Of a stretch of 46,652 bases of DNA, positions 816 to 24,335 are shown in pieces. A program made the translations under genes and the position numbers. Where the stretch lies: the NCBI GenBank assembly GCA_945787575.1, contig CALZKB010000006.1:59431-106082 (forward strand), read 5' to 3'. The notes under the pieces were generated by a model that did no database searches, was not told where the DNA came from, and saw nothing but the letters and a program-made list of their open reading frames with translations. The first letter of the stretch is position 1; every line of letters begins with the position of its first letter. The DNA comes from Thermoanaerobaculia bacterium (lineage in GTDB: Bacteria; Acidobacteriota; Thermoanaerobaculia; Multivoradales; JAHEKO01).

Positions 816-3800
816 TCAAGGCTTGCCCGATTCCAGGCGGTCGAGGAGCCTCTCGAGATCGGCAGCCTCGAGCTCCGCCGCCGGAAAGTCAACGGTGGAG
901 ACGCCCCCGGCATCTTCGTCGAGACAGTGCTCGATGAGCGACTCGAGCTCCTCGATAAAGAGCCCGGCCACGCGCTCTATGGTCTCGCGGCGGTGCACGC
1001 CGAGGCAATAGGTCCACCGCGCCGACAGCCTCTCTTCCCGGATCGCGGCGTTGATCTCGAGCAGGTGCGAGCGGGCGTTGCGCGGGTCGCGGCAGGTCGC
1101 CTGAGCACCGTCGATCGGCTTCCACGGCGACCCGCCGGCGCTCCCGTCGACACGGCTCAAGAAGTTGAATAGAACCTGTGGCTCGGAGCGCTCGGCGAGG
1201 CGGGCGGCGGCCCTTCCGTCGCGGTCGAGGTAGCGCAGAACGCCGAAACCGCGACCGTCTCCGGGCACGGCTCGGAGCTGCTCCTTGATCGCCTGTATGG
1301 ACGGACCTGGGCCTTCGGCTCCGGCGAGCGACAGCTCGACCGGATAGGAGACGGTGAACCAGCCGACGGTGCGCGAGGTGTCGAGATCGTCGGGGCGACC
1401 GTGCCCCTCGACCGCCAGGCGCAGCTCGGTCCTGCCGCTCCAGCGTCGGAAGCCACGGACGAGGGCAGTAGCGAGGAGCTCGTCGACTCGGGTGCCGTAG
1501 GCGTTGTAGGTGCGGCGCAGCAGGGCGTCGGTGAGTCGTCGATCGAGCTCGACGTCGATCGTGCGGGCGTCGGCTTCCGACGGCGGTCGCTCGGGCTCGA
1601 AGTCGACCGGGATGTCGACGCCTTCGGCCGGGAGGGCGGAGAGCCAGAACTCGAGCTCGTCCGCCGGCTTGGCTGGGCCGGTCGAGTCCGCGAGGCTCGT
1701 CGCCCAACGCTGGAAGGAAACGGTCCGCGCCGGCAGGGTGACGGGCTCCCTCGACTCCAGCTGGCGGTAGGCCTGGTGGAGGTCGGCGAGCAGCGGCGGC
1801 CACGAAGCGAGGTCGACGACGAGATGATGAAGGCTGAGCAGAAGCTGATCGGGCGCGTGGGCGTCGCCTCCGTCCGCCAGTCGGATCCACGCAGCTCGCA
1901 GCAATGGGGGTTGCGCGAGGTCGAAGCCCGCCTGAATGTCGGCGAGGCTCCGCTCGCGAAGCGCGGAGCGCTCGCTCTCGGGCACCGAGGAGAGGTCGAC
2001 GACAGACAGCGGAGCGAAGACCGTTCCAACCGGCGCGATCTCCTGGCGCCACCGGTCGTCCGGCTCGCGCACGAACCGGGCCCGCAGCATGTCGTGATGG
2101 TCGATGCAGTGCCGCAGTGCGTCGGCGAAGCGATCGGCGTCGAAATCGCTCGGCAGCTCGAATAGCTGTGCCTGGTTCCAGTGGTGGAGCGCGACGAGCT
2201 GGCGGTCGAGGAACCAGGCCTGGATGGGCAACAGAGGGAGCTCGCCCGACGTCGGCCGATGATCGTCCCAGCTGCCTCCGGCCGCCTCGGCCACCGCGGC
2301 GAGCTCGGCGAGCGTCGGGTGAATGGCGACGTGCCGAGGCTCGATCGCGTAGCCCGCCTGGCGAATTCGGGAGACGACCTGGATGCTGAGGATCGAGTCG
2401 CCGCCGAGCTCGAAGAAGTTGTCGTGAAGACCCACGCGGGCGACGCCCAACAGTTCGCTCCAGATCGCCGCCAGCTCCCGCTCGACTCCGGTCCGCGGGG
2501 CGACGAAGCGATCGCGGCGCTCGGCGCTACCGCCGCTCGGTGCCGGCAAGGCGCGGTAATCGATCTTCCCGCTGGCGGTGTGCGGCAGCCGGGCGAGCAC
2601 GACGATCCGGTCGGGGATCGAGAAATCGGGAAGCCGCTCGCCCAACCAGTCCCGGAGTACCCCGCCCTCGAGGCGGGTGGGCATTTCGCGGGCGCCGTCA
2701 GGGGGAGCCACCCAGGCGACGAGCTGGGCGGGGGCCTCGCCAGCCGGGCGGATCGCGGCGACCGCGGCCTCGCCGATGTCCGGGTGTCGCCGGAGGCACT
2801 CTTGGACGCCCTCCGGCTCGATTCGGTACCCGCGAATCTTCACCTGTGAGTCGGTTCGGCCAAGGAAGAGAAGGCTGCCGTCGTCCCGGTAGCGCACTCG
2901 GTCTCCCGTTCGATAGGCTCGTTGTTCGCCGACCCCGTCGAGATCTAGGGTGACGAACCGCTCCGCCGTCAGTCGTTCGTGCCCGAGGTAGCCACGCGCG
3001 ACGCCGGCGCCGGCGATATAGAGCTCGCCGGCAACGCCGGTCGGGAGCGGCCGCTTGCGCTCGTCGAGTACATAGATCCGGGTGTTGGCGATCGGCCTGC
3101 CGATCGGCACCGGTCCCCGACCGTCCGCTTCGATGATCTCGTGCACGGTACTCCACACGGTCGCCTCCGTCGGACCGTACTCGTTGAACAGCCGAGTCGC
3201 GGGCAGAGCTGCGTGGTGGGCCCGAGCCAGAGACGGCGGGCACGCCTCTCCGGCGACGATGACCGTCTCCAGCGAGTCGAGAGTCCGCGAAGCGGCCTCC
3301 TCGAGCAGCACTTCGTATAGCGCCGGCAGGCAGAGAGTGTGGGTGATCCGGCGTTTGCGGATGGTCTCCGCGAGCGCCTCCAGGTCGCGCTCGATGCCGG
3401 GCTCGAGCACCAACGTACCGCCGGAGGTGAGCGTCCAGAAGATGCCGGCGACCGAACTGTCGAAGGCGAAGGAGGAGAGAAGCAGAAAGCGACCGTCGTC
3501 GCCCTCGTAGTGCCTCCGCCGAGCCAGGGTCGAAGAGACCAGGTTGCGCTGCGTGACCTCGACACCCTTGGGGAGCCCCGAGGAGCCGGACGTGTAGATC
3601 ACGTAGGCGAGCGGGTCCGCGGAGGCGACTGGCAGCGGCGCGGGGTGGCCGGCGACGATCGAGGAGAGCTCGGCGTCGCCGAGGAGCAGGTGCGAGGCGC
3701 CGGTCGAGGGCAGACGGCCGAGCAGTGGTTCTTGGGTCAAGACGACGGAGGGCGACGCCTCGTCGAGCATCGACCGGAGGTATTCGGGCGGGTAGCCGGG

Positions 3801-5414
3801 GTCGAGCGGAAGGTAGGCACCGCCGGCGGCGAGAATCCCGAGCATTCCCACGATGAGCTCGATCGAGCGCTCGGCGTGAAGGCCGACGAGCATTTCCTCT
3901 CCGACCCCGAGGTCGGTCAGCTGCCGAGCGAGATGCTCCGCGCGCCGGACCAGCTCGCTGTAGCTCACCGATTCGTTCCCGCACGTCACAGCCGTCCTCT
4001 CGCCCGCCCGCCGAGCCTCCTGTTCGACGAGCGCGTAGATGCCTGCATCCTCCGTCCCGTCGTCCCTGGTGTCGTTCCATTCGACGAGGATCCGGGTGCG
4101 CTCGGCCGGCGTGAGCATCGGCAGATCCCCCAGCCGGGAGTCCGGCTGTTCGACGAAGGCCGAGAGCAGTGCCTCGAGCTGCCGCGGGAGGCGCTCGGCA
4201 TCGGCGGGCTCGACGCGCGCTTCGTCGTAGACGAGAACGAGCTCGATCCGCTTCCCGGGAACGACGAGCAGGGCGAGCGGGTAGTTGCTCTGTTCGGCGA
4301 AGTCGAGGTCACGCAGCTCGAAACCGGCGTTACTCTCGAGCGAGCTCTGAGGGTGGTTCTCGAACACCACGACGCTGTCGAACAAGGGCTCACCTGCGCC
4401 CAGCTCACTCCAGCCCTGAACCGCCTGTAGCGGGCTCGCCTCGCGAGACTGTCGCTCGAGACCTCGATCCTGAAGCACTTGCAGCCAGGCGAAGAGCTCG
4501 GTTCGCGGGTCGATGCGCGCGCGCAGCGGCAACGTATTGATGAAGAGGCCGATCGCATTCTCCACCCCTTCCAGCTCCGGTGGACGACCGGCGCTGGTGA
4601 CGCCGAAGACGACGTCGTCGTCTCCCGAGTAGCAGCTGAGGAGCAGCCCCCAGGCGCCTTGAAAGATCGTGCTCAGGGTGATCCGCCGGTGGGCGGCCAA
4701 CGCGCGTAGGCGCGAACTGGTCTCCCGGCTCAATCTGAGGGCCGCCTGCCGCGCCCGAGCGGCGGTGCCGGTCTCCGGTCGTAAGATGTCCAACCGGTTC
4801 GGTTCGGTGAAGCCGGCGAGCTCGTTGCGCCAGTAGGCCTTGGCCCCCGCGGGGTCCTGGCGCGCATGCCAGGCGATGTAGTCGCGGAAGCGGAAGGGCT
4901 CGCTGAGAGCTCTCGGCCTCGATCCCGAATAAAGCGCCGACATCTCCCTCAGCAACAGACGTGTCGACCAGCCGTCGGCGATCAGGTGATGGAGGCTCCA
5001 GATCCAATGCCACTCGCGCTCGTCGATCCGGAACAGAGCCATCCGCATCAGCGGCGCCACCTCGAGGTCGAAACCGCGCGCACGGTCTTCGCGCAGGAAG
5101 GCGTCGAAGCGCTGCCTCCGGCTGCCCGGATCGAGGCCGCGCCAGTCGCGGACGTGCCACTCGAGCGCGGCGCGCTGGCGCACCACCTGCAGCGGTTCAT
5201 CCAGGCCGTCCCACAGGAAAGCCGTTCGCAGACTGGTGTGGCGAGCGACGAGCTGCTCCCAGACTCGCTCGAGATTGGCCTCGTTGAGTTCGCCTACCAA
5301 CAGAGCGCTGACCTGCGTGACGTAGACGCCAGGGGCCCCCGCGGCGGTATGGAAGAGCATCCCCTCCTGCATCGGAGAGAGAGCGTAGACATCCTCCACA
5401 TTCCCGAACTGCAT
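816..5414 (-). CDS. one-module NRPS, C-A-T-E
   Basis: 1532 residues. Condensation domain about 1-440 with HHLIADGWS at 142-150. Adenylation domain about 455-960 with YTSGSSGLPKG at 607-617, NEYGPTEATVW near 744-754, YRTGD near 834, and TASGKIDYRAL at the A10 position. Carrier domain with DNFFELGGDSI; Ser1007 would carry phosphopantetheine. C-terminal epimerization domain about 1055-1510 with HHLVVDLASW at 1196-1205, EGHGR, RTVGWF and VLFNFLSR. Aligned by eye to GrsA, the specificity residues are about D-S-A-L-I-A-E-V-W-K. I do not recognise this as a standard code; it shares seven positions with the published histidine code (DSELTAEVCK), so the substrate stays unassigned. The module should add one residue and invert it to D. 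The gene begins 12 bases after the stop of the upstream NRPS and belongs to the same operon. Confidence 0.96.
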   Translation of the reverse strand: MQFGNVEDVYALSPMQEGMLFHTAAGAPGVYVTQVSALLVGELNEANLERVWEQLVARHTSLRTAFLWDGLDEPLQVVRQRAALEWHVRDWRGLDPGSRRQRFDAFLREDRARGFDLEVAPLMRMALFRIDEREWHWIWSLHHLIADGWSTRLLLREMSALYSGSRPRALSEPFRFRDYIAWHARQDPAGAKAYWRNELAGFTEPNRLDILRPETGTAARARQAALRLSRETSSRLRALAAHRRITLSTIFQGAWGLLLSCYSGDDDVVFGVTSAGRPPELEGVENAIGLFINTLPLRARIDPRTELFAWLQVLQDRGLERQSREASPLQAVQGWSELGAGEPLFDSVVVFENHPQSSLESNAGFELRDLDFAEQSNYPLALLVVPGKRIELVLVYDEARVEPADAERLPRQLEALLSAFVEQPDSRLGDLPMLTPAERTRILVEWNDTRDDGTEDAGIYALVEQEARRAGERTAVTCGNESVSYSELVRRAEHLARQLTDLGVGEEMLVGLHAERSIELIVGMLGILAAGGAYLPLDPGYPPEYLRSMLDEASPSVVLTQEPLLGRLPSTGASHLLLGDAELSSIVAGHPAPLPVASADPLAYVIYTSGSSGLPKGVEVTQRNLVSSTLARRRHYEGDDGRFLLLSSFAFDSSVAGIFWTLTSGGTLVLEPGIERDLEALAETIRKRRITHTLCLPALYEVLLEEAASRTLDSLETVIVAGEACPPSLARAHHAALPATRLFNEYGPTEATVWSTVHEIIEADGRGPVPIGRPIANTRIYVLDERKRPLPTGVAGELYIAGAGVARGYLGHERLTAERFVTLDLDGVGEQRAYRTGDRVRYRDDGSLLFLGRTDSQVKIRGYRIEPEGVQECLRRHPDIGEAAVAAIRPAGEAPAQLVAWVAPPDGAREMPTRLEGGVLRDWLGERLPDFSIPDRIVVLARLPHTASGKIDYRALPAPSGGSAERRDRFVAPRTGVERELAAIWSELLGVARVGLHDNFFELGGDSILSIQVVSRIRQAGYAIEPRHVAIHPTLAELAAVAEAAGGSWDDHRPTSGELPLLPIQAWFLDRQLVALHHWNQAQLFELPSDFDADRFADALRHCIDHHDMLRARFVREPDDRWRQEIAPVGTVFAPLSVVDLSSVPESERSALRERSLADIQAGFDLAQPPLLRAAWIRLADGGDAHAPDQLLLSLHHLVVDLASWPPLLADLHQAYRQLESREPVTLPARTVSFQRWATSLADSTGPAKPADELEFWLSALPAEGVDIPVDFEPERPPSEADARTIDVELDRRLTDALLRRTYNAYGTRVDELLATALVRGFRRWSGRTELRLAVEGHGRPDDLDTSRTVGWFTVSYPVELSLAGAEGPGPSIQAIKEQLRAVPGDGRGFGVLRYLDRDGRAAARLAERSEPQVLFNFLSRVDGSAGGSPWKPIDGAQATCRDPRNARSHLLEINAAIREERLSARWTYCLGVHRRETIERVAGLFIEELESLIEHCLDEDAGGVSTVDFPAAELEAADLERLLDRLESGKP

Positions 5415-5426
5415 GGCGGCGCTCGT

Positions 5427-8400
5427 TTAGCTACCGCCTCGCCGAAGCGCAACCGAGAGCTTCTCGAGGCCGGCTTGGTCGAGGTTGGCGAGCGGGAAAT
5501 CGCTCGGAGAGACCTCGGCACCAGGTTCCTCGAGAGCGTGCTGGACGAGCCTACCGAGCTCCGTGAGAAGCTCGGTCGCGAGCCGCTCCACCGTCGCCGG
5601 TCGATGGCGCTTCCGACTGAACTCCCAGTCGATGTTGAGCCGGTCGCGATCGACCGCCGCATGGACCTCTAGGAGAAACGGCCGGCGGAGCGCGGCGGCG
5701 CGGGAGAGCTCGAGGGGGCTCTCGACCTGGAAGATCGAGTCGGCGGATGTCAGCCGGTCGAAGCGGCCGAGGTAGTTGAACAGAACTCCGAACCGCCGCC
5801 GTGCCCCCGAGGTCCGACCAAGCCCCTCGACACCGGCAAGGTAGCGAAGCAAGCCATAGCCGATTCCGTTCCCGGGCGTTGCTCGAAGCTGCTCTCTGAC
5901 CGAGCGCAGGACGCTTCCAGGAGAGCCCTCGTCCGGCAAATCGACCTGCACGGGGAAGAGAGTGCTCAGCCAGCCGACGGTCCGGCTGGCGTCGAGATCC
6001 GCTTCCACGACGTCGCGGCCGTGACCCTCGAGAAAGAGACCGATCGAGCGGCTCTCACACCAATGGGCGAGTGTCGCCACCAACGCGGTGACGAGAATCT
6101 CGTGTGTCCGGATCTGCTTCTTGGGCAGCTCCTCGAGCAGACCTCGGGTGAGCCGAGCGTCGAGGGTCGTCCGCACCGAGTCCGCGGTTGCCATCGTGTC
6201 GTCGGTCTCGGCGTCGAAGTCCAAGGGAAGCGGCGCCGCGTTGCGCCGTAGCGTCTGGCGCCAGTGGTCGAGTCCTTCGGTGACGTGAGGCGCGGTCGCG
6301 GCCCGGGCGAGCGCCGCGGACCACCGACTGATGCCGGTCACCGGCGGTAACCGCGCTTCCGTTCCCAGCTCGAGCTGCTCGTAAGCCGACCACAGGTCGT
6401 CGAGAAGGATCGACCACGAGACCGCGTCGACGGCCAGGTGATGGGCGACGAAGAGCAGCCGGCTGTCCGGGTTGCTGGCGACGAGCGCCACCCTCAGGAG
6501 CGGTGGTCGGTCGAGCTGGAAACAGCCGTCGATGCCGATCGCTTCGGCGGCCGCGCGGTCGACTTTGGGCGATCCGCCATGCTCGCCGCCGCTCGCGACG
6601 ATCAGGCGAGGGGTCGCTTCGACGACCTTCCGCTCGGCCACCCAGTGGTCTCCGTCGCGGTGGAACGCAACCCGCAGCGCTTCGTGGCGGTCGACGACGA
6701 CCGCCAGAGCACGCTCCAGCCGCCGCGGCTCGATCTCGGACGAGACCGTTACCGAGAGCACGTGGTTCCAGTGCTCGAACGAGAACTGCGCGTGGCTGAA
6801 GAACCAGTGCTGAGCCGGTGTGAGGTCGACGGGGCCGGCGTCCGTTTCCGCTTCCTCGGTCTGCTCGGCGGTGACGCACACCCGAGCCAGCTTCTCGACA
6901 GTCAGGGTGTCGAAGAGTTGTGCCGGCGTCAGATCGAGGCCGGCGCGATGACAGCGAGCGACGATCTGGATCGCCATGATCGAGTCGCCGCCGAGCTCGA
7001 AGAAGTCGTCTCTGACGCCAATTGTGTCGACTTGGAGCACCTCTTGCCAGATTCGAGCGATCGCCGTCTCGAGGCCCGTGCGCGGCGGAACGAGCTTCTC
7101 GGCGTTCGCCGGGCGGCCATCGGCTGGCGGCGCCAGTGCCGCGCGGTCGGCCTTTCCGTGGGCGGTCCGAGGGATCGCCTCGAGGCGGAAGAAGCGGGAT
7201 GGGATCATGAAGGCGGGCAGGGTATCGGCGGCGTAGTCGCGCAACTCCGCCGTCGGTATGTCGCTTGGGGAGGTGTAGTAGGCGACGAGGCGGTCGCCGC
7301 CGGCGCGAGCGGGCGAATCACCGCCGTAGCCGACCTCTTCGAGGATTCGCTCCACCTCTCGCGGGTCGATCTCGTCGTTGAGCTCGGCGAGCGCGGCCGC
7401 GCGGGTCTTGTGACCCATCCGCACGTCCCAGCTATAGGGCAGCGCATAGTTGTGGAAGCCGCGTTCGTGCTTGTGGACCCAGATGCCGACGTCGTTGATC
7501 CGGCAGTTGGTCGAGCGCCCGGTGTCCGACGGCCGTACCCACGGAACCCTCTCGTTCAGATAGCGCATGAGCTCGTCGAGATCGACCGCTACGTAGCGGT
7601 AGAAATCGATGAAGTGGACCTCGTCGAAGATTCGATCGTCGTCGAAGAGCCCGACGTCGAGGTGCCGGCGGACGGCGTCATCGACACGGTGATAGGCCTT
7701 CCTCGCCTCCAGGACGAACGAGTCGACGTCCTCCATCTCGAGCTCTGGGTCGGTGAAGAGCTCTTCGGTGAGACGGGTCTCGAAGAACTGGCCGCGCGAC
7801 AGGCCGGTGACGACGATGGGGATTCCGCGCCGCCGCGCCAGCTCCAAGGCGAGAGTGTAGATCGTCTTGAAGCAACCTTGGCAGACATTGGCGTGGCGCT
7901 CGAGACTGTCGACGAAGATGGCGTTCATCGCCGGGGTCGAGCCGAACTCGTGATCGACCCCCAACGCCGCGACCACCCGGCTAATGTTGGCCTTGGCCTG
8001 GTCCGAGATGAAGCCGTTGTCGAGGGTGAAGGCGAGTACCCGATAGCCCATGTCGACAAGCCAGCAGAGCATGTAGGTGCTGTCCTTGCCGCCGCTCAGC
8101 AGCGCGATGCAGTCGTAGTCGGTCGCCGTGCGGCGAGAGGTGTCGAGGGTCGCCCGGAGCTCCTCCGGCGACCGGAAGTAGCTCTGCGCACGCTGCGCGT
8201 AATGCTCGAACCTCCGGCATTGACTGCACACCCCGCTGGCGTCGAAGTCGATTCCCGGATAGTTGGAGGGAAGAGCGCAGCGGCTGCAGTAGGTGAAACC
8301 GTCGGCCGCTCCCGAGCGCCGCGCCCCGGTGACGGTGACGACGCATTGATCGATGTTCGGGTGGCCGAGGATCGCCGCCTCGACTTCGCCGAGCTCGATC

Positions 8401-11006
8401 CTCGCCCCGCGCACCTTGACTTGATCGTCGCGACGCCCGATGTGCTCGAGCACCCCCGGCGCGCACAGACGCGCCAGGTCGCCGGTTGCGTAGAGTCGGC
8501 CTCCGGGATCGAGCGGGCTCGCGACGAAACGTTGCGCGGTTTGCTCCGGGCGGTTGAGATACGAGTGCGCGAGGCCGGCTCCTCCGACATAGAGCTCACC
8601 GAGGACGCCTTCCGGGACCGGGCGCCGCTCTTCGTCGAGCACGTAAGCGCGGAGGCCAGCGATCGGCTTGCCGATCGGAACCGTCCCGGAGGTGTCTCGC
8701 CGCGGGTCGAAGGTGTGCACGATGCAACCGACGGTCGCCTCGGTCGGACCGTACTCGTTGTGCACCACCACGTCGTCACCGAAGAGAATCCGCGCCCGCT
8801 TCGCGAGCTTCGCTGTCAGCGCCTCGCCGCCGAAAATGAGCCGACTTACTCGCGACGGCTGGGGCGCGCGCTCGCGAAGCAGCGCCATGTGTGACGGCGT
8901 TAGCTTGATCACGTCGACGGCGTCGTCGTCGACGACCTCGAGCAGCGCGAGGTCGGCGCGACTCTCCTCGGGGTAGATGACGATCCGTCCGCCCGAGGCC
9001 AGCGGCACGAAGATCGAAGTCACCGTCAGATCGAAGGTCAGAGGCGAGAACAGAGGAAAGGCCAGACGCTTGTCACCGACGTAGTGCTCGCGAGCCCAGA
9101 CGACGTAGTTGGCCAGCGCGGAGTGCTGGATCACGACTCCCTTGGGCCTTCCAGTCGAGCCCGATGTGTAGAGAACGTAGGCGACGGACTCGGGATCGAT
9201 CGCAGCGTCACCAGGTTCAAAGTCAGCGAGACCGGGATCTACGCTGCTGGAGGTCGGATCGACGGTAATCACCAGCGGCCGTGCGCTCTCGGGCAGCTCG
9301 CGCTCGGTGCCCTGCCTGACGAGCACCGCGGAGACTCCGGAGTCTTCGAGCGCGAGAGCGATCCGACCATCCGGTAGCTCCGGGTCGATCGGGACGTAAT
9401 GAGCTCCGCTCTTGAGAACCGCGAGGATGGCGGTCACCGCCTCCACCGACCGCTTCATCATCACCGCGACGGCCGACCGCGGGCCGAGGCGCGACCGCAA
9501 CAACCTAGCCAGGCGATCGGTGCGGTGATCGAGCTCGCCGTACGAGACGATCTCCTCGCTGCAGACCAGGGCGGTCGCGTCGGGTGTCAGAGCCGCTTGC
9601 GCGGCGATCATCTCGACGACCGTTCCTGTCGAGTGCGGTGCGCCCGCGGCCGAGTTGAGGTCGCTCAACTGTTGCTCACGCTCCGCCGGCGCCAGTAGAT
9701 CTGCGCCCGAGATCGGCTGGTCCCAGTCGTCGAGCAGCGCGTCGACGAGCCGCTCGAAATGCCCCACGACCCGCGCTCGCCGTCTTGCGTCGAAGAGCTC
9801 GTCGTTCAGGTCGAAGAGTAGTCGAAAGCTGCCGCGGGCGTCGAAGTCGTGGAAGTGAAGGCGCAGGGCGTGCTCGCGGTCGTGATGACCGGGATGGAGC
9901 CACTCGCTGCGGACCGGCATGCCGGCGAAATCCCCGAACGAGCCGCGGATCGAGTTGAGGACCGCGCAGAAGCAGCGGTTGTAGCGTGGGTCGCTGGCTC
10001 CGGCCTTGGCGAACTTGAGGAACCCGAGGCTCTCGTTGCGCACGCGGCCGAGGAGCTGCCGGAAGCTCTCTCCCTCTTCGATCTCGACCGCGAGCGGAAA
10101 GGCCTCTGTGAAGAGGCCGGCGGTCTGCCGAAACTGGGCCGTCGGCCGGTTGTGGGAGAGGGCGCCAAGGCCGATTCGGTTCTGGCCGCCGATCCGGTAC
10201 TGATAGGCGAACAGCAGAGTCGCCATCAGGTTGAAGAGACCAAGCTCGAGGGTGAGAGCTCCAGCCTCGGGATTGTGGGCTAGGTCGCGGAGCGCCGCGG
10301 AGCGGTCGCCACCGAGATCGAGGCTGAGCCGGGTGCTCGCTGTCGACCCGGCCGGCTGCCGCCGGCCGTAGAGCCTAGGGGGAGAGAGATCGCTGTCGGC
10401 GTAGCGCCGCCAATGGCTCTGCGCGGCGGTGTCCGTGCGCGCCTCACGCTCGAAGGCGACATACGACGAGTAGTCGGGCAGCGCACGACGTGCGCCGCTG
10501 TCGTCCGCCTGCAGGCGCGCGTAGAGCTCGCTCAGGCGGCGAAAGAGGAGCGCCATCGACCAGGCGTCGGAGACGAGGTGATGTTGGGCAAGATAGAGGA
10601 TGAATCGCTCGCTCGACAGCCCCAAGAGCGCTGCGTCGAAGAGGCGTCGATCGAGCTCGAAGAGGCGCTCGCAGCGATCCTGTACGAGACGCCGGGCGAC
10701 ACTCGTGGGGTCTTTTTCAAAGGTGAGGTCGACGAGATCGAGGCGATCGTCGAGATCGTCGAGGACGAGCTGTCGCGGGGTGTCGCCATCGACCTCGATC
10801 ACGGTGCGCAAGGCGTCGCACTCCGCCACGAGCTGCGCGAATGCGCGGCGGAGCAGCTCCGGCTCGACGGCGCCCTCGATCGCGAAGGCGAAGGCCATGT
10901 TGTAGAGCGGTGCGTCCGGGTGGAGGCGCTGCCCGGTCCAGATCGCGAGCTGACTCCGGGTCAGGTTCGCGCGATCGGTTACCTCAGGAGCCGGCTTGCT
11001 GTCCAT
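5427..11006 (-). CDS. one-module NRPS with PP-loop domain inside the A domain, C-A(PP-loop)-T-E
   Basis: 1859 residues. Condensation domain about 10-440; its motif is HHLVSDAWS (142-150), with Ala where Gly is usual but His143 and Asp147 kept. Adenylation domain from about 465: YTSGSTGRPKG at 613-623, NEYGPTEATVG near 750-760, YATGD near 839, and A8 GRRDDQVKVRGARIELGEVE at 857-876. The A domain is then broken by a PP-loop domain (about 904-1230) and resumes at about 1239 with A9/A10 (TAHGKADRAAL 1281-1291). Carrier motif DDFFELGGDSI, Ser1342. Epimerization domain about 1395-1845 with HHLAVDAVSW at 1522-1531 and VLFNYLGRF. The specificity residues by eye are D-L-T-K-I-G-E-V-G-K, close to the published asparagine code (DLTKLGEVGK). 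The start overlaps the carrier-protein gene by 23 bases. The role of the insert is inferred; see its own entry. Confidence 0.96.
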   Translation of the reverse strand: MDSKPAPEVTDRANLTRSQLAIWTGQRLHPDAPLYNMAFAFAIEGAVEPELLRRAFAQLVAECDALRTVIEVDGDTPRQLVLDDLDDRLDLVDLTFEKDPTSVARRLVQDRCERLFELDRRLFDAALLGLSSERFILYLAQHHLVSDAWSMALLFRRLSELYARLQADDSGARRALPDYSSYVAFEREARTDTAAQSHWRRYADSDLSPPRLYGRRQPAGSTASTRLSLDLGGDRSAALRDLAHNPEAGALTLELGLFNLMATLLFAYQYRIGGQNRIGLGALSHNRPTAQFRQTAGLFTEAFPLAVEIEEGESFRQLLGRVRNESLGFLKFAKAGASDPRYNRCFCAVLNSIRGSFGDFAGMPVRSEWLHPGHHDREHALRLHFHDFDARGSFRLLFDLNDELFDARRRARVVGHFERLVDALLDDWDQPISGADLLAPAEREQQLSDLNSAAGAPHSTGTVVEMIAAQAALTPDATALVCSEEIVSYGELDHRTDRLARLLRSRLGPRSAVAVMMKRSVEAVTAILAVLKSGAHYVPIDPELPDGRIALALEDSGVSAVLVRQGTERELPESARPLVITVDPTSSSVDPGLADFEPGDAAIDPESVAYVLYTSGSTGRPKGVVIQHSALANYVVWAREHYVGDKRLAFPLFSPLTFDLTVTSIFVPLASGGRIVIYPEESRADLALLEVVDDDAVDVIKLTPSHMALLRERAPQPSRVSRLIFGGEALTAKLAKRARILFGDDVVVHNEYGPTEATVGCIVHTFDPRRDTSGTVPIGKPIAGLRAYVLDEERRPVPEGVLGELYVGGAGLAHSYLNRPEQTAQRFVASPLDPGGRLYATGDLARLCAPGVLEHIGRRDDQVKVRGARIELGEVEAAILGHPNIDQCVVTVTGARRSGAADGFTYCSRCALPSNYPGIDFDASGVCSQCRRFEHYAQRAQSYFRSPEELRATLDTSRRTATDYDCIALLSGGKDSTYMLCWLVDMGYRVLAFTLDNGFISDQAKANISRVVAALGVDHEFGSTPAMNAIFVDSLERHANVCQGCFKTIYTLALELARRRGIPIVVTGLSRGQFFETRLTEELFTDPELEMEDVDSFVLEARKAYHRVDDAVRRHLDVGLFDDDRIFDEVHFIDFYRYVAVDLDELMRYLNERVPWVRPSDTGRSTNCRINDVGIWVHKHERGFHNYALPYSWDVRMGHKTRAAALAELNDEIDPREVERILEEVGYGGDSPARAGGDRLVAYYTSPSDIPTAELRDYAADTLPAFMIPSRFFRLEAIPRTAHGKADRAALAPPADGRPANAEKLVPPRTGLETAIARIWQEVLQVDTIGVRDDFFELGGDSIMAIQIVARCHRAGLDLTPAQLFDTLTVEKLARVCVTAEQTEEAETDAGPVDLTPAQHWFFSHAQFSFEHWNHVLSVTVSSEIEPRRLERALAVVVDRHEALRVAFHRDGDHWVAERKVVEATPRLIVASGGEHGGSPKVDRAAAEAIGIDGCFQLDRPPLLRVALVASNPDSRLLFVAHHLAVDAVSWSILLDDLWSAYEQLELGTEARLPPVTGISRWSAALARAATAPHVTEGLDHWRQTLRRNAAPLPLDFDAETDDTMATADSVRTTLDARLTRGLLEELPKKQIRTHEILVTALVATLAHWCESRSIGLFLEGHGRDVVEADLDASRTVGWLSTLFPVQVDLPDEGSPGSVLRSVREQLRATPGNGIGYGLLRYLAGVEGLGRTSGARRRFGVLFNYLGRFDRLTSADSIFQVESPLELSRAAALRRPFLLEVHAAVDRDRLNIDWEFSRKRHRPATVERLATELLTELGRLVQHALEEPGAEVSPSDFPLANLDQAGLEKLSVALRRGGS
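7317..8297 (-). other. PP-loop (N-type ATP pyrophosphatase) domain inserted between A8 and A9/A10
   Basis: Residues about 904-1230 of the NRPS at 5427-11006. Order of motifs: CSRC (907-910) and CSQC (927-930), a likely zinc knuckle; SGGKDS (971-976), the pyrophosphate loop that adenylates a carbonyl oxygen; CQGC (1042-1045); TGLSRGQFFETRL near 1067; and STNC with Cys1168. The opening pattern (YCSRCALPSNYPG, then FDASGVCSQC) resembles N-acetyl sugar amidotransferases of the WbpG/PseA type. CxxC plus a distant third Cys is how TtuA/Ncs6-type tRNA thiolases hold a [4Fe-4S] cluster. Known members activate a C=O with ATP and replace the oxygen with sulfur or nitrogen. I infer a thioamide- or amidine-forming step on the residue loaded by this module. 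Domain edges are approximate. Confidence 0.88.
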
Positions 11007-11265
11007 CGTCGCCCTCCAGCGAACTCAGGTACGTGACGATGCCGCGAACCGTCATGAAGTGCTCGATCGTGATGTCGGCCGGAGGGATCGCCACGTCACA
11101 GCGACGCTCGAGGAAATCGACCAGTCGCATCACCCCGAGGGAGTCGATCAAGCCACTTGCGAGCAGGTCGGAGTCGGGCTCGAGCGCAACGTTTTCGCAA
11201 CTACCGATGAGCTCGGTCGAGACGAAATGCAGGATCGTCGCGGTGAGTTCGGAAGCGCTGGCCAT
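10984..11265 (-). CDS. free-standing acyl/peptidyl carrier protein
   Basis: 93 residues from ATG at 11265, which overlaps the stop of the upstream A enzyme in a TGATG junction, so translation is probably coupled; the longer open frame upstream lies inside that gene. The core SGLIDSLGVMRLV contains Asp41-Ser42-Leu43, the phosphopantetheine site. The size and four-helix pattern fit stand-alone carriers of the PltL/RedO or D-alanyl-carrier kind. Its placement directly after a single A enzyme suggests that the pair loads a starter amino acid and presents it to the first condensation domain of the NRPS that begins 23 bases inside this gene. The substrate is not known. Confidence 0.9.
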   Translation of the reverse strand: MASASELTATILHFVSTELIGSCENVALEPDSDLLASGLIDSLGVMRLVDFLERRCDVAIPPADITIEHFMTVRGIVTYLSSLEGDDGQQAGS

Positions 11266-12884
11266 CACGATAGCACCGGCGGCGCGCCGCTCGATTCGAT
11301 CGAGGTCTGCAGCCCGCGCCTGTCGATCTTGCCACTCGTCGTTCGCGGCAGGGTGTCCATCACCCTCGTGGTCTTGGGCACGGCGTACCATGACAAGAGG
11401 TCGGAAACAAAGTGACGCAGCTCTTCGGCCTCGACGGTGGCTCCGGGCCTCGAGGTCACCGCCGCGCCGAGATGATCGATCTCCTCACCGACGCGGATGG
11501 GAAACACCGCGGCCTCTTCGACCGCCGGATGGGCGGTGATGGTGCGCTCGATCTCGTCGAGCTCGACCCGGTATCCACGAATCTTGACCTGCCGATCCTT
11601 GCGCCCCAGGAACATCAGTTCGCCTTGCTCTTGGCGCCGCACCAGATCTCCGGTGCGATAGAAGACCCGCTCGTAGTTCGAGTCCACGCACTGGCGAAAG
11701 AACGCCTCGGCGTCGAGATCGGGCCGTGCCCAGTAGCCGAGCATCATGGTGGAGGAGCGGATCAACAGCTCGCCTTCCTTGCCGTCGGCAACGGGTTGAC
11801 CGGCCTCATCGACCACCAACGCCTCGGTGTCGTCCCAGGTTCTGCCGATGGGAATCGGGGCACCGTCGTCCTGTGCGCCCTCGCCGCGACGGGGCACGTG
11901 GTGGTACGTGCACTGGTTGACCTCGGCGGGGCCGTAGACGTTCGAAAAGCGAGCCTGCGGCCAGCGCGCCATCAGCGCCTCGACATGTTTGCGCGAGAAG
12001 GGCTCCCCGCCGAACAGCACCCATCTCAAGCTCTCGAGGTTGCGGGACTCCAGCACTCCGCGACCGAGCAGCTGGATCAGCGCCAGCGGCACCGAGTACC
12101 AGATGGTGAGGCGCTCGCTCTCCATCAGCTGCGAGAGGCTGGCCGCCATTTTGGTGTAGGCCTCGGGGATGAGCAGCGTCGTCGCTCCGGCGCACGGACC
12201 CGAGAAGTAGCCGAAGGTCGACATGTCGAAGTGGAGCGGGGAGTGGTTGCCGATCCGATCGCTTGGACCGACTTCGTAGGTCGCCACCGACAGCCGGGCG
12301 TAACTCATCCCGCTGCGGTGGCTGTGCATGATGCCCTTCGGCCGCCCGGTGGAGCCCGATGAGTACATGATGTAAGCGAGATCGTCTCCCGTCGTCGAGA
12401 TCGGCGGCGCCGAGCCGTCGGTCAGCTCGTCCAGGTCGCCCCACGGTCGCAGGCGAACACGCGCGCCGAGCTCGGCGCCTGGACCGGCGACGCCAGGGCC
12501 GACGATTGTCTGCAAGGCGGATCGCCGCTCGACGAGTCTGAGCAGCTGCGAAGCGAGGCTCTCGTGGGCCACGAGGTGCGCGATCCCGCAGTTGTCGACG
12601 AGACCGGCGAGGCCGCCAGGCGGCATCTGCGGGTCGATCGGCACGTAGGCAGCGCCGGCTTTGAGGATTCCGTAGACGGCGACTGCCGTCTCGAGGCATC
12701 GCGGCATGAAGATCCCGACTCGGTCTCCCGGCCGGACACCTTCGTCGAGGAGGAGGTGAGCCAGCTGGTTGGAGCGACGGGCCAGCTCGCCGTAAGACAG
12801 TCGCTCGCCGGGAGCGCAAAAGGCCTCGCCGTCCTCGGCGCGGTCGGCGGCATGGTCGACGAAGTGCGGTAGGAGGTAGATCAC
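11265..12884 (-). CDS. free-standing amino-acid adenylating enzyme (A domain)
   Basis: 539 residues, a complete A domain without condensation or carrier domains: LSYGELARRSNQLAHLL near the N-terminus, YSSGSTGRPKG at 174-184, FDMSTFGYF, GGEPF, NVYGPAEVNQ, YRTGDLVRR, GRKDRQVKIRGYRVELDEIE and TTSGKIDRRGL. It should make an aminoacyl-AMP and transfer it to the adjacent carrier protein. The layout recalls PltF/RedM-type ligases that load proline on a separate carrier, and the neighbouring cyclodeaminase-like gene could supply proline or pipecolate. The specificity positions (about D-M-F-Y-L-G-V-Q-C-K) are not a code I recognise, so that link is inference. It starts 12 bases after the cyclodeaminase stop. 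An acyl rather than aminoacyl substrate is possible. Confidence 0.92.
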   Translation of the reverse strand: MIYLLPHFVDHAADRAEDGEAFCAPGERLSYGELARRSNQLAHLLLDEGVRPGDRVGIFMPRCLETAVAVYGILKAGAAYVPIDPQMPPGGLAGLVDNCGIAHLVAHESLASQLLRLVERRSALQTIVGPGVAGPGAELGARVRLRPWGDLDELTDGSAPPISTTGDDLAYIMYSSGSTGRPKGIMHSHRSGMSYARLSVATYEVGPSDRIGNHSPLHFDMSTFGYFSGPCAGATTLLIPEAYTKMAASLSQLMESERLTIWYSVPLALIQLLGRGVLESRNLESLRWVLFGGEPFSRKHVEALMARWPQARFSNVYGPAEVNQCTYHHVPRRGEGAQDDGAPIPIGRTWDDTEALVVDEAGQPVADGKEGELLIRSSTMMLGYWARPDLDAEAFFRQCVDSNYERVFYRTGDLVRRQEQGELMFLGRKDRQVKIRGYRVELDEIERTITAHPAVEEAAVFPIRVGEEIDHLGAAVTSRPGATVEAEELRHFVSDLLSWYAVPKTTRVMDTLPRTTSGKIDRRGLQTSIESSGAPPVLS

Positions 12885-12896
12885 GAATCTTCGGGC

Positions 12897-14030
12897 CTAT
12901 CCGTCACCGGGTGCGTCCAGCCCGTCGGTCGGCGCCGTCTCTGGGTCGCCGTTCGCCGGCGGGAGGGTGTCCACAGTCGAGCTTTCGTCTCCCAGGAAAG
13001 CGTACGGATCTCGGGGGTCCGGTGCGGTCCCCTCGAGATCGATCTCCGACCCGATGCCGTAGGCACGAGCCCAGTCGAGCGCGAGCTCGAGCGCCGCCTG
13101 GTCTTCCAAGGCCCAGCCGGTCGAGTCGAAAACCGTCCGCTGCTCTCGTAGCGATTCGAACGCCTGCCTGTCGCGAGCAACCTCGGCGATTTCCGGACCG
13201 ATCGACATCGGCTCGAGCTGCTGGCACTCACCCTCGAGCCGAGCTTGCTCGAGAAAGTCGGGGCAGACGAAGCTCTCTTCGAGCAGCTCGCGAGGCACTT
13301 CGATCTTGCCCGGAAAATCCGAGCCCACGGCGTTGACGTGCAGCCACGCCTGGGTCTCGCAAGCCTGGAACACCGGACCCTGGTCGACTCCGACCGAAGT
13401 CGCGACGCAGAGGATGTCGGAGCGCGGTACTAGCTCCGACGGCGGTAGAGAATGGAACTCGACGTCGTTGGGCACCATCAGGGCCACCCGTGAGGCGAGG
13501 CTCGCTTCGACTACCGGATCGACGTCGTGGGTCAGGATCTCTTCGATCTCGAAGCTGCGGCAGATGGCGTGCACCTGGGTCACCGCCTGCGTGCCGCAGC
13601 CGATCACTCCCAACGTCCGGCTCTGCGGCGAGGCGAGCAACCGGCTGGCGACGGCCGACGCCGCCCCCGTTCTCATCGAGGTGAGCAAAGTGCCGTCGAC
13701 GATTGCTCGCAGATGACCGCTGTCGGTATCGTACGCTGCCAGCGTCGACAAGATCGTCGGCAGGTTCCTCTTTTCCGGGTTCTCGGGGTGGTAGCCGACG
13801 ACCTTGAGCAGCACATGGGAGCCCAGATCCATGAGCGGCATCCACTCGATGAGGCCGGGGGCCGGCTGGCGATAGTGGAACCCGCTGCGGACGGGAATCT
13901 GGGAGCGGCGCCGGTCGAACTTCGCGAACGCGTCCGTCAGTCGGACGACCAGCTCGTCGATCATCCGATCGCGACCGACCCGCCGGACGATCTCCTCGAG
14001 ATCTCGGCTCGACAGCAGAAGCGTTTTCAC
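12897..14030 (-). CDS. ornithine cyclodeaminase / mu-crystallin family enzyme
   Basis: 377 residues from GTG at 14030, chosen because it overlaps the stop of the HupE-like gene by 4 bases (GTGA); the longer open frame would lie within that gene. Lys76 in LLKVVGYHP, SMRTGAASAVAS around 118-129, the Rossmann motif GVIGCGTQA at 141-149 and VNAVGSDFPGKIEVP with Asp238 all match the OCD family. Family members are NAD-dependent: they convert ornithine to proline or lysine to pipecolate, or act as imino-acid dehydrogenases such as SbnB in diaminopropionate synthesis. No SbnA-like partner is in the window. In this operon it most likely supplies a building block. The last 40 residues are Pro/Asp/Gly-rich and probably disordered. 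Confidence 0.9.
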   Translation of the reverse strand: MKTLLLSSRDLEEIVRRVGRDRMIDELVVRLTDAFAKFDRRRSQIPVRSGFHYRQPAPGLIEWMPLMDLGSHVLLKVVGYHPENPEKRNLPTILSTLAAYDTDSGHLRAIVDGTLLTSMRTGAASAVASRLLASPQSRTLGVIGCGTQAVTQVHAICRSFEIEEILTHDVDPVVEASLASRVALMVPNDVEFHSLPPSELVPRSDILCVATSVGVDQGPVFQACETQAWLHVNAVGSDFPGKIEVPRELLEESFVCPDFLEQARLEGECQQLEPMSIGPEIAEVARDRQAFESLREQRTVFDSTGWALEDQAALELALDWARAYGIGSEIDLEGTAPDPRDPYAFLGDESSTVDTLPPANGDPETAPTDGLDAPGDG

Positions 14031-15229
14031 GACTGGATCCCTAGCGCCCGGGTGACGAACCAGTAGGTGGCCACGAGACTGATCGCGATCGAGCCGCCGG
14101 CGAGCACCGCCGGCCGGTAGATCGAGCTCTTGCGCAGCAGGAACAGGAGCGGGAAGACCGCCGCGACGATCGCCACCTGACCGACCTCGACTCCGACGTT
14201 GAAGGCAAGCACGACCTGAACGAGATTGGCCATCCTGAAGGGCAGATCCCCCATCACCGAAGCGAAGCCGAGGCCGTGGAAGAGACCGAAGAAGAAGATC
14301 ACGATCCAACTCCCCTCACGGAGCCTCGGGAAGATGTTGTTGAGAGCGATCAAGACGATGGAGAGGGCGATTACCGACTCGACGAGTCGACCCGGTAGCC
14401 GGACGAGATCGAGGGCTGCGAGGCTGAGAGTGAGCGAGTGCGCCACCGTGAAGAGCGTCACGATCTTGGCGACGTTCCACAACGCTTCGCGGAAGCCGGT
14501 GACCGGTTGCCACGCGGAGCGGCTCGTCGCTGTGGACGGCACGCCGTCCGCTCTCTCCTCCTTCCGCATCAGAACCGCAGTCAAGAGCAACGCGATGAGG
14601 AAGAGCACGTGGTCGATGCCCGCCCATATGTGGAGCATTCCCTGCCAAACGAAATCACGCACCCGCAGCAGCCCTCGAAGGTTGGCCAGGTCGAGAACCT
14701 GGTCACTGTTCGACCGGCTGAAGACGAGCGCGGTGAACTCTTCACCATAGTCCGATCCGTTGCGGCGGTCGTACTGGATGCACAGCAGGCTGCGGTGGAA
14801 ACGGTCGTCGTCGAGCAGGACGCGGTTACGAATCTCGAGCCGATCGGGGATCTCGGCTCGCGCGGTGCGGTAGAAGAACTGAGCGAAGCCGCCCAGGTCG
14901 CCGGCTTCGACGAGATCGATTCCCGTGAACTCATAGGGAATCTCCATCCCGTTCGAGACAATCGAGAAGCTCTGACGGAGGTATCGCTCGATCGGTCCTG
15001 CACTGCTCGCGACGGTCTCCTTGGCGGCTTCGCGGTCGGCGGGGAGATCGAGCCCGAAACGCCGTTCCAGATCGACGACTCGGATCTCGAAGCGCCCCTC
15101 GAGACGGGTCTCGACACCAGAGCCCTCGACGTTGAGCCATACGTAGTTCTCCCCCGTTGCGTGACCCCACGCGACGGTCGGGAAGAGGAGTCCCAACAAT
15201 AGTGCGGCCGTGAGGCTGTGGCTCCTCAT
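14027..15229 (-). CDS. HupE/UreJ-like membrane protein
   Basis: 400 residues. A signal peptide (LTAALLLGLLFPTVAWG) is followed by a soluble beta-rich region of about 180 residues and then six or seven membrane helices from about residue 190. HIWAGIDHVLFLIALLL, VTLFTVAHSLTLSLAAL and FFFGLFHGLGFASVMGDLP are the conserved His/Asp-bearing helices of the HupE/UreJ_2 family. HupE and UreJ relatives are linked to nickel or cobalt uptake for hydrogenase and urease; the large version with an exported N-terminal part is poorly characterised. It is the first clear gene of the NRPS operon and overlaps the next gene by 4 bases, which argues for a role tied to the product, such as metal handling or export. 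That role is inference. Confidence 0.88.
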   Translation of the reverse strand: MRSHSLTAALLLGLLFPTVAWGHATGENYVWLNVEGSGVETRLEGRFEIRVVDLERRFGLDLPADREAAKETVASSAGPIERYLRQSFSIVSNGMEIPYEFTGIDLVEAGDLGGFAQFFYRTARAEIPDRLEIRNRVLLDDDRFHRSLLCIQYDRRNGSDYGEEFTALVFSRSNSDQVLDLANLRGLLRVRDFVWQGMLHIWAGIDHVLFLIALLLTAVLMRKEERADGVPSTATSRSAWQPVTGFREALWNVAKIVTLFTVAHSLTLSLAALDLVRLPGRLVESVIALSIVLIALNNIFPRLREGSWIVIFFFGLFHGLGFASVMGDLPFRMANLVQVVLAFNVGVEVGQVAIVAAVFPLLFLLRKSSIYRPAVLAGGSIAISLVATYWFVTRALGIQS

Positions 15230-22238: not shown

Positions 22239-24335
22239 CTACTCGGTGATCTGGAAGGTCACCGCCGAGGTCGTCACTCCGCCGTCGGTGCCGACCGCCT
22301 TGGCGGTGCTGCCGCGGCTCGTCGGTGTCAGCGCCTCCGCGAAGAGCGCCTCGAGCGGGTTGGGTGGCGCGCCCCGGCTGGTCACCCGCGGGCCGAGCAG
22401 CCATTGGAAGTCGATCGGCTGCTTGCTGGCGAAGACCTTGAGCACGTTGTCCCCATACGGCGGGCCGATCTGCCACATCGAGTCAGGAGTGTAGGTCTCG
22501 CCTGGCGGCACCGGCAAAGCGGTCTGGTTGCGAGGCGGCCAGAGCACGTCCCACTGGCCGTCCGGCATCAGCTCCAGCACCTGGACGTAGGCCTCTTCCT
22601 TGCCGGTGTTCTCGATCTCGAGCCGGTAGCCGACGCCCTCGGGCATGATGAGGCTGCCGCCCTCCATTCGACCGCTACCCGGCGGCTCGCATTTGCAGGT
22701 GCCGAAAGCGTCACAGTCCATGGCGCACGGCTTCACGCGGAGATCGACGGCCAGGGCGTCCGATTGGAGCTCCATCCGCCGCAGGTAGCGGTTACGTGCA
22801 AAGTCCTTCAAGTGCTGAACCAGCTGGGGTGCCGGATCGCCACTCGAGCGCGGCGGCCCCCACAACCGGCGACCGTCGACGATCGCTTCGACGACCAGTC
22901 CTTCGTCGAGCTTCCGGATGGCGACGTGAGGGGTTCCCTCGAAGGTCACAAGCTTGGTTCCGTCCTTCTCGATGGCCGCGGTCAACGCCGCTTCGAGGGC
23001 CGCCGCCTCGCCTTCGAGGCGGGCGACGATTCCCACCGGCCCGAAGCTCTGGGCGGTGACGTAGGCCCAAGCGTTGGCGACGTCCTCCTCGTAGACGGCT
23101 GGATTGATCGAGACCCGCGCCTGGAGAGGGGTGACACTTTGGATGTCGCCGCTGGTGATCGGCTCGGCGTCACGCCAGGCGGTCGTACCGGCCGGGTAGA
23201 TCGCCACCCGGGTGCCCGCGAAGAGGCCCATGACACTGCCCGCTTCGAGCATCAGCTGAGTGCCGTCGCTGCTCAGCTTACCGACCTTGAAGAACGGATC
23301 CTGGACGACCGGCTCGCCCTGGAACAGACCTGCGTCGAGCTCCCCTTCGGCCTGCGGGATGTTGGACACGCCGTAGCCCGCCATCTCGTTGCGCAGTTTC
23401 TCGAAAAGCGAACGGTAGGTCTCGCGCGGGCCGAGGTCGGGCAGCGCCGATACCAGCGCGTACGACAGGGACCCGACCGGGTAGCCCTCATCGTCGCTCG
23501 CCTCGATGGCGAGCTGGTCGTGGCGCGCCGCCGAGAAAGCGACCATCGGCGCCAGTCCTTCATCGCCGACGGCGCCGCCGCGGGCGGTGGGCCCTCCTTC
23601 GAGGTAGCCGCCACCGGTCTCCTCGGACGCCTCGGCCGTCCGCTCCTGAGGCGGGCCGATCGGCGTCGAGCGGCCTCGAGCCCTCGCCTCGCCTCGGGTA
23701 CCGGTCCCCGAGAAGCAGGAATCGAGGGACACCACGACTTCCCCTTTTTCGCCCACCTTGCGTCGAAGCTCGCGCAGCAGGGAGTTGAGCACGTCGTCGC
23801 GCAGGTGCCTGGCGCCGTCGTATCCCGCCGGGGGCTTGGCCGGTGCGTCATGCGGCACCAGCACCTCGTCGTAGCCGTCGATCTCGTCACTGTTGTTGTC
23901 GGTGATCTGGTGGCCGTGTCCGGAGTAGTGGAAGTACGCGAGATCGCCCGGGCCGACGGCGGCCATCAGCTGCTCGCGAAAGGCGCGCTCGATGCCGGCA
24001 CGGGTGGCCTCGGCATCGGTCACCGTCTTCACGTCGAAACCCTGCGCCTCGAGGGCGGGCTGCAGGAGCTCGAGATCTCGATCGCAGGCGAGGTCGTCCC
24101 AGCCGGTGTCGGAGGCGTAGTCGGCGATCGCCACGACCAGGGCGACCCGCCGCGCGCCGTCGCCACCCGCTCTCGCACTCGGGGCGCCACCATCTTCACT
24201 CGCGGCCGCGACTTCGCTGGCACCCTCGTCCCGAGCAGCCGAACCGTCGACCGGCACCGCGGCGCCGTTACAGGCCAACATGAATACCAACGTGAGAATC
24301 GAGATCGAGCGCGATGTCGTCTCCTTCGTCATCAT
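22239..24335 (-). CDS. caspase-like (peptidase C14) lipoprotein with C-terminal DUF4384-like region
   Basis: 698 residues. The N-terminus has a lipobox (LTLVFMLAC, Cys22), so it is probably an envelope lipoprotein. After a low-complexity linker the peptidase fold begins at about residue 62 (RRVALVVAIADYASD). The dyad is His140 in YFHYSGHGHQ and Cys207 in VVSLDSCFSGTG, as in metacaspases. PMVAFSAARHDQLA and SLSYALVSAL close the domain at about 330. The second half contains beta-rich sequence and near the end a region (LEIENTGKEEAYVQVLEL, WQIGPPYGDNVLKVFAS) that resembles DUF4384, often found with bacterial caspase-like proteins. It should cut after basic residues if it behaves like metacaspases. 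The start overlaps the stop of the alpha/beta hydrolase gene by 4 bases, so the two are coupled. Confidence 0.9.
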   Translation of the reverse strand: MMTKETTSRSISILTLVFMLACNGAAVPVDGSAARDEGASEVAAASEDGGAPSARAGGDGARRVALVVAIADYASDTGWDDLACDRDLELLQPALEAQGFDVKTVTDAEATRAGIERAFREQLMAAVGPGDLAYFHYSGHGHQITDNNSDEIDGYDEVLVPHDAPAKPPAGYDGARHLRDDVLNSLLRELRRKVGEKGEVVVSLDSCFSGTGTRGEARARGRSTPIGPPQERTAEASEETGGGYLEGGPTARGGAVGDEGLAPMVAFSAARHDQLAIEASDDEGYPVGSLSYALVSALPDLGPRETYRSLFEKLRNEMAGYGVSNIPQAEGELDAGLFQGEPVVQDPFFKVGKLSSDGTQLMLEAGSVMGLFAGTRVAIYPAGTTAWRDAEPITSGDIQSVTPLQARVSINPAVYEEDVANAWAYVTAQSFGPVGIVARLEGEAAALEAALTAAIEKDGTKLVTFEGTPHVAIRKLDEGLVVEAIVDGRRLWGPPRSSGDPAPQLVQHLKDFARNRYLRRMELQSDALAVDLRVKPCAMDCDAFGTCKCEPPGSGRMEGGSLIMPEGVGYRLEIENTGKEEAYVQVLELMPDGQWDVLWPPRNQTALPVPPGETYTPDSMWQIGPPYGDNVLKVFASKQPIDFQWLLGPRVTSRGAPPNPLEALFAEALTPTSRGSTAKAVGTDGGVTTSAVTFQITE

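Follow-up and report, generated by a model that had tools for sequence, protein, structure and literature searches.

A PP-loop ATP pyrophosphatase inside an asparagine-type adenylation domain of a widespread nonribosomal peptide synthetase family, with a possible role in thioamide formation

A nonribosomal peptide synthetase of 1859 residues (NRPS 2; 5427–11006, minus strand), encoded in the 46,652-nucleotide stretch of DNA analysed here (the window), contains a PP-loop domain within one adenylation (A) domain, between motifs A8 and A9/A10. Its domains run, in order, C, the N half of A, the PP-loop insert, the C half of A, PCP and an E-type domain, so that a single polypeptide holds A1–A8 before the guest and A9–A10 after it. 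The A-domain core (residues ~463–895; 8322–9620) is followed by the insert (residues 904–1230; 7317–8297), with zinc-ribbon cysteines, an SGGKDS loop at residues 971–976 and a CxxC...C triad, then by the A-domain C-terminal part bearing A9/A10 (residues ~1236–1300; 7107–7301) and by the peptidyl carrier domain of the same module (residues ~1312–1376; 6879–7073), all on the minus strand. Pfam matches the C domain, AMP-binding at residues 469–817, AMP-binding_C from residue 1236 and the PCP at 1315–1375; it also assigns residues 1393–1832 to a second C-superfamily domain, in which the epimerisation-type motifs HHLAVDAVSW and FNYLGRF are present. The original prediction of an A domain interrupted at 7317–8297 by a PP-loop ATP pyrophosphatase of the amidotransferase/thiolase kind is fully borne out by Pfam, motifs, fold and homologues. 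As to function, we see roughly an even chance that the insert is a thioamide synthetase housed within the A domain, with carrier-bound asparagine as its substrate in a Pro–Asn*–His pathway that perhaps makes a metallophore.

The predicted structures agree with this architecture. With 73 homologues, AlphaFold2 models the whole interrupted domain at a pLDDT of 89.7, and the insert alone at a pLDDT of 93.6 with a pTM of 0.91; the insert thus folds confidently as a PP-loop domain in the structure prediction that had been proposed as a check. It emerges between two strands of the C-terminal subdomain after A8 (model strands 429–435 and 781–787). The top Foldseek match of the whole interrupted domain is 5wmm, the A domain of TioS interrupted by a methyltransferase. 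For the insert, the best full-length structure match is a Legionella N-acetyl sugar amidotransferase (8wex, VIA Z 20.3 over 297 residues), which spans the entire insert, zinc ribbon included; the PP-loop core also matches LarE, NcsA, NAD synthetase, the nitrile synthetase ArtA, TtuA and YcfA with Z of 12–14. Among sequence families, an HMM search against PP-loop families, again suggested beforehand, matched both TIGR03573 and, partially, QueC. The match to TIGR03573 (N-acetyl sugar amidotransferase, WbuX) covers residues 905–1224 with an E value of 4.8e-37, and its 128.2 bits lie below the curated family cut-off of 203.2 bits. The isolated insert scores 28.9 bits against PF06508 (QueC), above the gathering score, over profile positions 2–75 of 210.

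The fusion is not confined to this window. Counting A–(PP-loop)–A proteins across 84,980 species genomes, as the original prediction had recommended, we kept at least 80 loci with the insert; among the genome-scan matches listed, the insert is 51–70% identical, and at least 14 named phyla are represented. In every listed locus with readable context, the insert lies between the N and C halves of an A domain, usually in the order C-A[insert]-A'-PCP. This architecture is also found on closed plasmids of Roseovarius pelagicus and Pseudohalocynthiibacter aestuariivivens, with the insert at the same point and 55–56% identical; further named strains are Aureicoccus marinus, Tropicimonas sediminicola and the planctomycete Poly30. 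Within the class of the window genome, 17 of 149 genomes carry it. Median pairwise identity among the listed loci is 56% for the insert versus 39% for the surrounding A core, and the distance matrices of the two agree, as expected of co-inherited parts (Mantel r 0.83). We interpret this better conservation, together with the matching matrices, as the mark of an old functional unit that moved as one. The window does stem from a fragmented draft genome of 484 contigs, and the original prediction had named an assembly error joining the two A halves as the finding that would undo it. However, the same fusion recurs in finished plasmids, in isolate genomes and across at least 14 phyla, with an open frame and no stops; because independent records share the insert, an assembly error is already refuted, and we give an artefact or a chance joining of two genes practically no credence. 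A free-standing relative occurs on a plasmid of Streptomyces sp. NBC_01216 (L003:11021-16943), where it is joined to an incomplete C domain and adjoins A-PCP and asnB genes. It branches within the inserts as sister of L064, which indicates that the domain can enter or leave an A domain.

The substrate of the interrupted domain can be predicted from its specificity code. All 77 readable codes among the listed loci are DLTK[IV]GEVG or one residue off, and the window copy reads DLTKIGEVG; DLTKIGEVGK is an Asn code (PMC12283262). The original prediction held that the module loads an amino acid, and the code now names that residue as asparagine, which, judging from code and domain order, would be selected by the interrupted A domain and loaded on its own PCP. 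A His-type module nearly always comes next: its code is DS[AV]L[IVM]AEVW in 62 cases among the listed loci, and DSALIAEVWK is among the His codes (PMC12283262). In the window, this next module of the line is NRPS 1 (816–5414, minus strand; 1532 residues), a C-A-PCP-E protein with the His-type code DSALIAEVW. On the other side of NRPS 2, and on the same strand, lie a small carrier protein (10984–11265), whose start overlaps the previous stop, and a stand-alone A domain (11265–12884); among stand-alone PDB entries, the prolyl-carrier ligase PltF matches this A domain best. Next to these is an ornithine cyclodeaminase/mu-crystallin family protein (12897–14030, minus strand; start uncertain, with the reading frame extending to 14309). 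A C-PCP-TE protein (G000:C6:57707-59899) crosses the edge of the window, which encodes its N-terminal part on the minus strand at 1–469; the C domain of this protein is split over two reading frames by an apparent frameshift (window ~1–12; G000:C6:59341-59442).

An acyl-CoA-dehydrogenase-like protein is encoded upstream in 44 listed loci, and the best PDB match of the copy in L024 is the prolyl-ACP dehydrogenase 4irn. The window cluster has no prolyl-ACP-dehydrogenase-like gene, and has the ornithine cyclodeaminase-like gene instead; the window genome's best dehydrogenase copy lies outside the cluster and is 39% identical to that of L024. From the Asn and His codes, together with the prolyl-ligase-like A domain, the carrier and the dehydrogenase, we predict the backbone to be a proline-derived unit–Asn*–His.

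In clusters from other phyla (L038:11504-15738, L051, L056, L059 and L047), the following His-type A domain is itself broken at the same A8/A9 point. In three consecutive reading frames, the L038-type split encodes a C domain with the N half of the A domain, then a protein resembling guanidinoacetate methyltransferase (E 4e-25), then the C half with the PCP: an A domain that is divided and interrupted in trans. Beside the NRPS at L084:16322-17710 stands a gene for a glycosyltransferase of the macrolide type (EryCIII/UDPGT), which belongs to a cluster (c4) found in 11 loci; since this gene recurs by the NRPS, some products may be glycosylated.

We envision the following sequence of events. The A domain would adenylate asparagine and load it on the PCP of the module, and the embedded PP-loop enzyme would then spend ATP on adenylylating an amide oxygen, either of Asn or of acyl-Asn, on the PCP. 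Methyltransferase guests of A domains modify the carrier-bound amino acid (PMC11355689), and if the PP-loop guest behaves likewise, its substrate would be Asn-S-PCP, in which the only amide is that of the side chain; were it to act after condensation, the N-acyl amide would be a second candidate. The amide of the side chain is the most likely target, given that the choice of asparagine alone is conserved. A [4Fe-4S] cluster held by the CxxC...C triad would carry a sulfide on its open iron, and this sulfide would displace AMP to give a thioamide, a step modelled on closthioamide synthesis, in which CtaC acts in trans. As a whole, the line would run from a proline unit on the free carrier, often oxidised by the acyl-CoA-dehydrogenase-like enzyme, through Asn* and His to release by the TE domain. 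Cluster binding by the triad, sulfur as the nucleophile and the identity of the carbonyl are each inferred, and the choice of sulfur over nitrogen, dehydration or cyclisation might go either way.

The cysteines are the main pointer to sulfur. SGGKDS and seven cysteines are invariant in 79 of 79 inserts, from the at least 80 loci; in insert numbering, C4, C7, C24 and C27 have the layout of a zinc ribbon, and C139, C142 and C265 form the CxxC...C triad. CtaC is an Fe-S-dependent, carrier-protein-dependent thioamide synthetase that takes PCP-tethered peptides as substrate, and its full activity needs D77 and S78 of the ATP loop as well as C154, C157 and C284 (PMC6772006). It shares with the insert a PP-loop and a CxxC...C set, placed at +81/+84/+211 from the PP-loop in CtaC versus +71/+74/+197 in the insert, a likeness read from published residue positions rather than from sequence alignment. 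Unlike the insert with its place inside an Asn module, CtaC is a free-standing enzyme; it acts outside any NRPS, on a beta-alanine chain, and its homologues come mostly from anaerobes. The tRNA thiolases TtcA, TtuA and NcsA, together with mmLarE, likewise combine the PP-loop fold with a CxxC...C [4Fe-4S] site for sulfur insertion; they differ in acting on tRNA or a nucleotide cofactor, and are ~15% identical to the insert in structural alignments. Profile alignments place the CxxC of the insert on that of mmLarE and of TtcA-like proteins; the latter were taken from class relatives, and the window genome's sole PF01171 match resembled TilS.

These cysteines also set the insert apart from most of the enzymes that it otherwise resembles best. 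N-acetyl sugar amidotransferases (TIGR03573 WbuX/WbpG/PseA; 8wex) are its closest match in sequence family and in whole-domain fold, and HisH/HisF ammonia-supply genes stand beside most true TIGR03573 members sampled. The insert departs from them in its score below the cut-off, in having no HisH/HisF partner, in the triad and in a predicted carrier-bound amino acid substrate. In a control sample of 12 PP-loop proteins of this nearest named family flanked by both HisH and HisF genes, the CxxC is absent from 11 and present in one, L086 (L086:2992-4197), a HisH/HisF-paired sugar amidotransferase on a Rhodobacteraceae plasmid with the insert's CxxC...C cysteines. In the tree, a split (99/96) sets the inserts, together with the free-standing triad proteins of L003, L088 and L115, apart from the other family members, and L086 falls on the opposite side of it; several branches are long. 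No HisH/HisF, AsnB or other glutaminase was found in the window cluster or among the 25 commonest neighbour families (147 neighbour proteins). The invariant triad, absent in 11 of 12 paired amidotransferases, and the lack of a glutaminase neighbour favour sulfur over nitrogen, short of proof; the triad of L086, present in a HisH/HisF-paired protein, does not allow sulfur chemistry to be read from the triad by itself.

How these observations weigh depends on the alternatives. If the insert worked like WbpG or PseA, the ATP-activated Asn amide would be attacked by ammonia, which would displace AMP to leave a beta-amidino residue. The nearest named family and the nearest solved structure both being N-acetyl sugar amidotransferases speaks for such an amidine synthase and weakens the thioamide reading, and the same triad in the HisH/HisF-paired L086 points the same way. 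However, the neighbour-family tally that yielded no glutaminase, the rarity of the triad among paired members, the separate branching of the inserts and the score below the TIGR03573 cut-off all tell against it, and we judge it improbable. A slightly better, still unlikely candidate is dehydration with no external nucleophile, by which the Asn amide would become a nitrile in the manner of QueC, ToyM or ArtA, or a neighbouring amide would close a ring, for example a dihydropyrimidinone from acyl-Asn, as proposed for CongE/OzmP. An Asn side chain would suit this chemistry, the fold matches include ArtA (Z 13), the isolated insert exceeds the Pfam QueC gathering score over the first third of the profile, and for the PP-loop proteins CongE and OzmP a cyclodehydratase role on an NRPS-PKS line has been proposed (PMC4504003). 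Yet the QueC match is partial, its PP-loop core is common to the whole superfamily, and the invariant CxxC...C triad would be left unexplained.

That catalysis by the insert is a prediction, and that inserts can in principle be structural, allows for a non-catalytic insert that scaffolds or regulates the A domain. Invariance of all ATP-loop and cysteine positions in 79 inserts, and conservation above that of the surrounding A domain, make this very improbable. Against the thioamide reading we also count that we noted no gene for sulfur relay in the clusters; to our knowledge, none is associated with CtaC either. The original prediction also had a carbonyl oxygen exchanged for sulfur or nitrogen on the tethered residue. 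ATP activation of the amide, its first half, fits what we see; for the exchange itself, amidine, nitrile and ring formation still stand as alternatives.

The predicted peptide may bind metal. A HupE/UreJ_2-type permease is encoded at 14027–15229 on the minus strand; it bears an HX5DH motif, and a His immediately follows its predicted signal peptide. Its gene is found in 48 of the listed loci examined, many contig ends notwithstanding, and in 13 of the 17 positive genomes of the class it is no more than 7 kb from the insert; both the HX5DH motif and the His directly behind the predicted signal peptide are kept in all 48 copies. Mature HupE may begin with this His, like the histidine-brace copper proteins. 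An exposed N-terminal His is known in copper proteins, and an N-terminal X-X-His sequence forms the ATCUN site for Cu(II) or Ni(II). A ring nitrogen at the N terminus, a modified Asn, the imidazole of His and the adjacent HupE-type permease together suggest a metal-binding product, and, on the strength of these analogies, a metallophore is plausible. A TonB-receptor-type family is present in four listed loci. We more tentatively envision cross-phylum NRPS tripeptides (proline-derived–thio-asparagine–His) that would be ATCUN-like, handled by HupE and supplied with sulfur by the embedded thioamide synthetase.

Genes for the large and small subunits of an NiFe hydrogenase adjoin the window cluster outside the window (G000:C6:50495-53427; L084:10495-13427). 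A nickel link was considered and rejected: hydrogenase occurs in 5 of 17 insert-positive versus 66 of 132 other genomes of the class, with no enrichment (p 0.13), and given this lack of association in the 149 genomes the adjacency is probably incidental. Rfam gave no match except tRNA, and hence no metal riboswitch, in the window or 15 related loci, and nothing relevant tying HupE to a siderophore, a nonribosomal peptide or a nickelophore was found among titles and abstracts.

Among known systems, the closest in architecture are the methyltransferase-interrupted A domains of TioS, KtzH and McyA (5wmm), which also place a second catalytic domain between A8 and A9; here, however, the place of the SAM methyltransferase is taken by a PP-loop ATP pyrophosphatase whose cysteines are of the zinc-ribbon and Fe-S types. 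A categorisation of interrupted A domains from 2020 was reportedly concerned with methylation domains. The guests listed in reviews are methyltransferase, monooxygenase, oxidase and reductase only (PMC8949500, PMC11355689), in agreement with the earlier remark that no described biosynthesis uses such an insert, and a literature search of incomplete coverage found no published description of interrupted adenylation together with a PP-loop. Compared by description only, CongE/OzmP of the conglobatin and oxazolomycin lines resemble the insert as PP-loop proteins of an NRPS-PKS line with proposed amide activation, but are free-standing, with a proposed ring closure on formyl-glycine (PMC4504003). 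We regard NRPS 2 as an interrupted A domain with a new class of guest, probably of CtaC-like chemistry; new here are the Asn specificity of the interrupted domain, the seven invariant cysteines and the recurrent cluster partners. If this is true, amide-to-thioamide conversion or another ATP-driven amide change joins the known abilities of A domains. The fusion probably yields a widespread family of small peptides, perhaps sulfur-modified and metal-binding; at least 14 phyla, known mostly from metagenome-assembled genomes, would share this single conserved line of products. The fixed Asn and PP-loop module might serve to engineer thioamides into peptides.

Elsewhere in the window, one reading frame (34439–36754) fuses an aminoglycoside-phosphotransferase-like domain to a class III aminotransferase, and another (22239–24335) joins a DUF4384 domain to a caspase fold (Peptidase_C14).
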